Assembly: GCA_903934015.1 (NCBI GenBank)
Contig: CAIZMI010000003.1
Span: forward strand, 1-61,438
Source: an uncultured bacterium
GTDB lineage: Bacteria > Patescibacteriota > Andersenbacteria > UBA10190 > CAIZMI01
DNA: 61,438 bases
Direction: 5' to 3'
The notes under the pieces are model-generated. The model saw only the letters and a program-made list of their open reading frames with translations. It made no database searches and had not been told where the DNA came from. Below, piece by piece: positions 1 through 49,028 of this stretch. Each line of letters starts with the position of its first letter. Position 1 is the first letter of the stretch. The translations under genes and the position numbers were made by a program.

Positions 1-208
1 TTGTTATTGGGCGCGTGTTTAGCATGGTGATGTTCATAATCCCAGACTACGACACGCGCTTTGTTATCCACAGGTTTCAGACCAATTCTGTGGTGGAAAC
101 AGGTGGGACGTTCATACCAATCTTGCGTTGGATAAGACTGGAGGTTGGCGCTAACTCAAAAAAATATTATAATGAAATTATTCAATTATTAATAAATGTA
201 ACATCCTA

Positions 209-48465: not shown

Positions 48466-48768
48466 CCCACCAAGAATCGGCCTCAAAATATGCAATTTAA
48501 ATTGCATATTTCTGGCCACCGAAAAGCGGTTTCGCATCGGCGAAACAACGCTTTTCGTTCGATTCTTGATACGAGCCAATAAATTGGCTCGCTGTGGGTG
48601 CTATTTAAATATATCAAACCCGTAAAGCGAAGTTTGGTTGCTCCGAGACTCCGCGTCATTGGACGCGCAAGTCTCGGAGTTCTTCGATTCTTGTGCAAAA
48701 CGACTCAACATCCCGTTGAGTCGTTTTGTGTACATTATGTAGTTTCGCAAAGCGAAACAAATCTCGAG
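48466..48768. repeat. Dense array of unrelated palindromes/hairpins beside tRNA-Lys
   Basis: AAATATGCAATTTAAATTGCATATTT; CGAAAAGCG..CGCTTTTCG; CGAGCCAATaaATTGGCTCG; CTCCGAGACT..AGTCTCGGAG; CAAAACGACTCAAC..GTTGAGTCGTTTTG; GTTTCGCaaaGCGAAAC. Confidence 0.85.
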
Positions 48769-48841
48769 TGCGCCCACCAAGAATCGAACTTGGAACCGTT
48801 GGCTTAAAAGGCCACTGCTCTACCAATTGAGCTATAGGCGC
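48769..48841 (-). tRNA. tRNA-Lys(TTT)
   Basis: GCGCCTATAGCTCAATTGGTAGAGCAGTGGCCTTTTAAGCCAACGGTTCCAAGTTCGATTCTTGGTGGGCGCA: full cloverleaf, anticodon loop CTTTTAA; one G-A mismatch at top of anticodon stem. Confidence 0.92.
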
Positions 48842-48863
48842 ATGCTTGGTAATTATTATACTA

Positions 48864-49028
48864 CTTGGAATCGCCCGCTATGTCAGCGGGCGCCCGCCGC
48901 GCTGGCGGGCGAACTTGGAACCCCAGAAGTAGAATTGCTGAAGCAATACACTTCTGGGCAGGCGTTGGCTTAAAAGGTTTGCCCGCTGTGTTAGCGGGCC
49001 ACTGCTCTACCAATTGAGCTATAGGCGC
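48864..49028 (-). pseudogene. Disrupted tRNA-Lys copy with three palindromic insertions
   Basis: Segments identical to the intact tRNA (48999-49028, 48964-48977, 48912-48922, 48869-48873) separated by inserts 48978-48998, 48923-48963, 48874-48911; 3' acceptor half missing. Confidence 0.85.

Follow-up and report, generated by a model that had tools for sequence, protein, structure and literature searches.

The window, by which we mean the whole 61,438-nt stretch of DNA that was analysed, carries an intact tRNA-Lys(TTT) gene on its minus strand and, 5' of it, a second tRNA-Lys copy (49028 to 48868, minus strand) broken by three hairpin inserts (Table 1). As a preliminary description had proposed, this copy is identical to the intact gene outside its inserts, at 61 of 61 positions (nt 1-61). 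The insert sizes of 21, 41 and 38 nt given there also hold, as does the T-loop site of the 38-nt insert; the 21-nt hairpin, reported from the anticodon loop, actually lies in the 5' strand of the anticodon stem, and the 41-nt hairpin, reported from before the T-stem, belongs to the variable region. The interrupted copy is real, but it is not complete: its match to the gene ends after nt 61, nt 62-73 are missing, and a 3' piece of the tRNA (nt 57-69) had been overlooked. This outer 3' piece, here called B, stands about 290 nt past the intact gene, behind a double hairpin of its own. From the outer 5' half, A, the order is therefore A, double hairpin, spacer with a -10-like box, intact tRNA, spacer, double hairpin, B, and the locus is to all appearances a tRNA gene opened at C56/G57 of its T-loop, with a complete tRNA-Lys lying within the gap.

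Table 1. Layout of the tRNA-Lys locus, listed 5' to 3' along the minus strand (positions of the window)
Feature	Position	Strand	Remarks
Broken tRNA-Lys, nt 1-30 (outer 5' half, A)	48999..49028	-	identity to intact gene
Insert 1: single 21-nt hairpin that interrupts the anticodon stem at nt 30/31	48978..48998	-	
Broken tRNA-Lys, nt 31-45	48963..48977	-	
Insert 2: 41-nt hairpin within the variable region, at nt 45/46	48922..48962	-	
Broken tRNA-Lys, nt 46-56 (T-stem 5' strand to C56)	48911..48921	-	
T-loop double hairpin, 38 nt, at C56/G57; left end of the inserted unit	48873..48910	-	recurs at this tRNA position in Lys, Glu, Gly, Ala and others, with compensatory changes
Broken tRNA-Lys, nt 57-61 (GATTC), last of the homology	48868..48872	-	
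Spacer X1, short	48842..48867	-	-10-like TAGTATAAT at 48855-48863
Intact tRNA-Lys(TTT), working copy within the split gene	48768..48841	-	ARAGORN; Rfam, 70.5 bits
Repeat unit (TCGAGATTTG...)	48641..48767	-	common after tRNAs of the genus; hairpins 48696-48728 and 48641-48679
3' unit, left arm	48557..48598	-	CCCAC 48594-48598; hairpin 48572-48592; anti-T-arm CAAGAATCGAAC 48557-48568; pairs with the next tRNA 3' piece
3' unit, double hairpin	48479..48556	-	hairpin 1 48521-48556; hairpin 2 (GGTGGCCAG...GAGGCC) 48479-48520; conserved across Patescibacteria and covarying
Outer 3' piece of tRNA-Lys, nt 57-69 (B)	48466..48478	-	conserved in the sister genome

The stem of insert 1 is the same as that of hairpin 2 of the T-loop insert, and such hairpins are few in the genome. 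We infer that the two hairpins outside the T-loop are later insertions into a dead copy. The position of X1 is occupied in related units by a GIY-YIG open reading frame (ORF), and the unit at the Lys locus has no ORF. The repeat unit that follows the intact gene, with the start TCGAGATTTGTTTCG, is found downstream of many tRNA 3' ends in the genus, and units of this type are sometimes placed after an outer 3' piece.

Part-copies of tRNA genes in the genus

A genome-wide search for hairpin-interrupted tRNAs, the check that had been proposed, recovered the double hairpin at C56/G57 of numerous tRNA genes, both here and in relatives. At tRNA-Glu, -Gly, -Ala and others, a truncated 5' copy carries it in the T-loop and the intact tRNA comes after. 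Recurrence in independent genomes and at many tRNAs makes an assembly artefact very unlikely. Removal of the inserts from RNA, which had been suggested as an alternative, lacks support and is not needed, because an intact copy always adjoins the broken one.

When tRNAs were scanned for parts of themselves in their own flanks, the upstream parts comprised nt 1-12, nt 1 to 54-57, or nt 1-71 in the case of tRNA-Ser, and the downstream parts ran from nt 54-57 to the tRNA end. In this genome an own copy was present at 9 of 38 tRNAs on the 5' side and 12 of 41 on the 3' side, as against 1 of 1338 and 1 of 1382 in the cross control of mismatched tRNA and flank pairs; the sister genome gave 11 of 31 against 3 of 808 (5' side) and 10 of 32 against 2 of 777 (3' side). 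With a control rate of about 0.1-0.4%, this excess shows that the part-copies are not due to chance. The affected isoacceptors number 18 of 41 here and 18 of 32 in the sister genome, and own part-copies occur at a low rate in other genera (1/48 and 2/47 of loci).

Other arrangements were also observed. The T-loop of a broken tRNA-Arg(CCG) copy holds three near-identical structured units in tandem. At several tRNAs a distinct three-hairpin element of about 105 nt lies between a copy of nt 1-12 and the whole tRNA, at a spacing fixed at 117-118 nt, and at tRNA-Arg(CCT) two such elements are stacked with three copies of nt 1-12.

Empty sites and exchanged alleles

Filled and empty sites can be compared between two species of one genus, this genome and its sister. 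At tRNA-Trp, -Tyr and -Gln, the native flank abuts an intact tRNA in the genome free of the unit, and the same flank abuts a partial copy in the filled genome. The flank TCGAGATTTG... directly follows tRNA-Trp here, whereas in the sister it is separated from the gene by a 159-nt insert and then a second nt 55-72 copy; the filled and empty states of tRNA-Tyr and tRNA-Glu(TTC) are similar. For tRNA-Gln, the upstream flank abuts the intact gene in the sister and a broken 5' copy here. The differences at Trp, Tyr and Gln are evidently clean insertions that duplicated a tRNA half and kept one copy intact. With its recurrent double hairpin at C56/G57, precise target duplications and empty sites, the pattern bears out in outline the earlier idea of a palindrome-mobilising process acting on tRNA genes.

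At two further loci the outer halves appear to be native and the inner working gene another allele. The broken outer half of tRNA-Gly(CCC) here is identical at 54 of 54 positions to the working gene of the sister, whereas the working inner gene is only 80% identical to it; the locus is syntenic with that of the sister on one side, an 83-aa GIY-YIG ORF separates the outer half from the inner gene, and the native 3' half was not found at the locus. At tRNA-Ala(CGC) both outer halves belong to one allele, P, and when joined at C56/G57 they give a full tRNA-Ala (ARAGORN); they enclose a 329-bp cassette with another tRNA-Ala allele, Q. In the sister it is Q that is broken and an allele of the P type that works, and from this exchange of roles it follows that breakage and replacement of tRNA genes have occurred in succession. 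At tRNA-Lys the inner copy is identical to the outer one, so replacement is not visible there.

GIY-YIG genes beside tRNA and tmRNA genes

Small GIY-YIG ORFs of 78-100 aa, with the active-site positions conserved, lie inside units at Lys, Gly, Glu, Tyr (twice) and Asn tRNAs, and others follow the 3' ends of Ala and Tyr tRNAs. Most units of this genome are without one; units that replace a 3' half rarely hold the gene, and where it follows a tRNA 3' end in genomes outside the taxonomic order, a 3' duplication is usually not seen. An HMM profile built from five unit ORFs matched 146 of 240 sampled Patescibacteria genomes. Among the 29 best-scoring loci, which are not a random draw, 21 have a tRNA or tmRNA gene no more than 400 nt away, and so do 18 of the 25 that come from outside the order, as against roughly 5% expected by an estimate from tRNA density (binomial P about 1e-18). 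New cases include a tRNA-Leu whose anticodon loop is split by a double hairpin and ORF, with a copy of nt 1-36, together with a tRNA-Ser (copy of nt 1-23) and a tRNA-Cys (nt 4-33). Related elements, many with a GIY-YIG gene, have by all indications hit many tRNA and tmRNA genes across the Patescibacteria.

In four genomes of three genera, the tmRNA gene has a small GIY-YIG ORF and hairpins behind it, and in one of them several degraded copies of the tmRNA 3' end come next. Elsewhere, a tRNA-like 3' exon with a match to group I introns (RF00028) has a GIY-YIG ORF a short way downstream.

Origin of the units and related systems

The unit at the Lys locus is probably what remains of an intron-less, GIY-YIG-linked mobile element of homing type, which breaks a tRNA gene in a loop and replaces the part that is lost. 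Elements of this kind insert most often at C56/G57 of the T-loop and sometimes in the D- or anticodon loop, have structured double hairpins at their ends, and carry, or copy on insertion, the displaced tRNA half or a whole substitute tRNA. The host thus keeps one working tRNA gene, with the original left as the outer halves A and B; since the gene is rebuilt, splicing is not needed. Autonomous versions encode a GIY-YIG nuclease of about 80-90 aa, which would make the cut in the tRNA loop; an element-bearing copy would then serve as template for repair and so install the element, as in homing. The comparisons show the insertion sites, duplications, empty sites, allele replacement and association with GIY-YIG genes, from which we infer that this protein cleaves, that repair brings about homing and that the hairpins may have a role. 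The Lys unit, which lacks the ORF, is probably a non-autonomous remnant whose broken copy gained two further hairpins.

On a broader scale, we lean towards regarding these elements as a phylum-wide and hitherto undescribed class of disrupt-and-replace drives on tRNA and tmRNA genes, in which a tiny GIY-YIG nuclease would cut in a loop, the element would install a substitute, and repeated rounds would turn over the tRNA set of Patescibacteria; hairpin-only units like those at the Lys locus would be non-autonomous offspring. Searches of the open PMC literature on GIY-YIG genes with tRNA or tmRNA, on palindromes and on Patescibacteria yielded no description of them. Transfer RNA genes are generally taken to be stable loci, where islands integrate at the 3' end. 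Here, up to half of the tRNA genes of a genome are scarred by elements that break and rebuild them, and at two loci so far the cell's own tRNA has been swapped for another allele. The proposal would give a role to the abundant and unexplained small GIY-YIG genes of the phylum and explain misleading partial tRNA calls, and the natural pairs of broken and replacement genes would allow the study of how selfish DNA persists in essential genes without splicing.

Alternatively, a recombinase acting in trans, of the tyrosine type or similar, could integrate small hairpin elements that bear an attP-like tRNA segment, with the GIY-YIG genes as passengers. The clean empty sites are in keeping with this, as are the 3' duplications: these start in the T-loop and stop precisely where the tRNA does, and integrases that target tRNAs usually have this stretch as their identity block. 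However, the 5' duplicated blocks vary with tRNA structure (nt 1-12, 1-54..57, 1-71) and have no fixed core, similar cores occur together with many different tRNA segments, no integrase ORF occurs in the Lys-locus unit or in the X1 and X2 segments read, and GIY-YIG genes recur at such sites phylum-wide. We consider a recombinase unlikely.

The structure of the units raises the further question of whether they are functional RNAs that act on the adjacent tRNA transcript, in its regulation or processing, and that have been retained on this account however they arose. The 3' unit folds into a three-way junction whose closing stem consists of the 3' half of the tRNA T-arm and an inverted copy of it; the stem differs from one tRNA to another, as a target-derived sequence would. 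Across 26 3' units, 95.7% of cells pair, compared with 23-49% when partners are slid, and covariation is 0.488 against 0.154 +/- 0.015 in shuffled data. Unpaired motifs are conserved across Patescibacteria, and the unit is on the tRNA strand in every case seen. Likewise, the 5' unit of tRNA-Glu(CTC), common to both species, has preserved the two-hairpin form, along with the 4-bp bases of the stems, but elsewhere its hairpins have changed in sequence. Against a retained RNA function, units differ in presence at the same tRNA between the two species of the genus, many tRNAs have none, and paired ends are equally expected of a mobile element, which together make it very improbable.

A signature search with the 3' unit in GTDB genomes found one layout in 16 of 16 matches near tRNAs, and all named sources of these are Patescibacteria (Uhrbacteria, Magasanikbacteria, Yanofskybacteria, Gribaldobacteria, Moraniibacteriota and others); matches outside the phylum have no tRNA nearby and look like chance. 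As 3 of 380 phylum genomes matched, the hairpin sequence is lineage-limited, though several named Patescibacteria carry it. Rfam searches with the 3' units of eight loci, at E up to 5, gave no credible match besides tRNA. An omega-RNA-like guide was another reading considered for the 3' unit, and remains speculative.

Tandem tRNA duplication followed by random insertion of REP-like palindromes into the redundant copy, that is, pseudogene decay, could fit the anticodon-stem and variable-region hairpins of tRNA-Lys, a copy with three hairpins at three sites, and related broken copies gather hairpins too. As a general account it is very improbable, and for the T-loop unit it is rejected, because the breakpoints (C56/G57 and tRNA ends) are the same at many tRNAs and flanks beyond the tRNA are not duplicated; at Gly and Ala, moreover, the inner allele is not that of the outer halves. 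An origin by reverse transcription of mature tRNA, which copies ending at tRNA ends might suggest, was also set aside: the duplicated 3' ends follow the gene (C74 without CCA in this genus) and not the CCA end of a mature tRNA.

For the homing-type element that we favour, the closest precedent is the mobile endonuclease ORFs (mORFs) of fungal mitochondria, known from atp6 of Allomyces and from atp6, atp9, cox2 and nad3 of Glomus (PMC3630166). There, an endonuclease gene (LAGLIDADG, or GIY-YIG in atp9) enters a gene and brings a foreign copy of the C-terminal part, displacing the native one, which is closer to relatives than the inserted part is (PMC3630166). The units described here resemble mORFs in their insertion into a gene along with a substitute for the displaced part, as seen at the empty sites and in the outer Ala halves around the 329-bp cassette, and in the displacement of a native part by a foreign one at tRNA-Gly and tRNA-Ala. 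Unlike mORFs, they target bacterial tRNA and tmRNA genes, insert in a tRNA loop, have double-hairpin ends and supply a 5' half, a 3' half or a whole gene. With the group I introns of tRNA genes that carry GIY-YIG homing endonucleases they share the nuclease family and the tRNA-loop targets, but they rebuild the gene and do not rely on splicing; an Rfam search of the window returned tRNA only and no group I intron. Integrative elements that target tRNAs by tyrosine recombinases likewise duplicate the T-loop to the 3' end and restore the tRNA, whereas the present units, in the segments read, are without an integrase, also replace 5' sides and whole genes, and measure only 100-570 bp.

REP/RAYT and Rickettsia palindromic elements are similar in being small palindromes in genes. 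They differ in that here the target gene is rebuilt, and the palindromes at RAYT genes have other sequences; the REP transposase that had been suggested as a possible source is thus not supported, the RAYT genes of these genomes being flanked by unrelated palindromes of their own. Several of the RAYT-like transposase genes examined have long flanking palindromes, which are unlike the tRNA hairpins.
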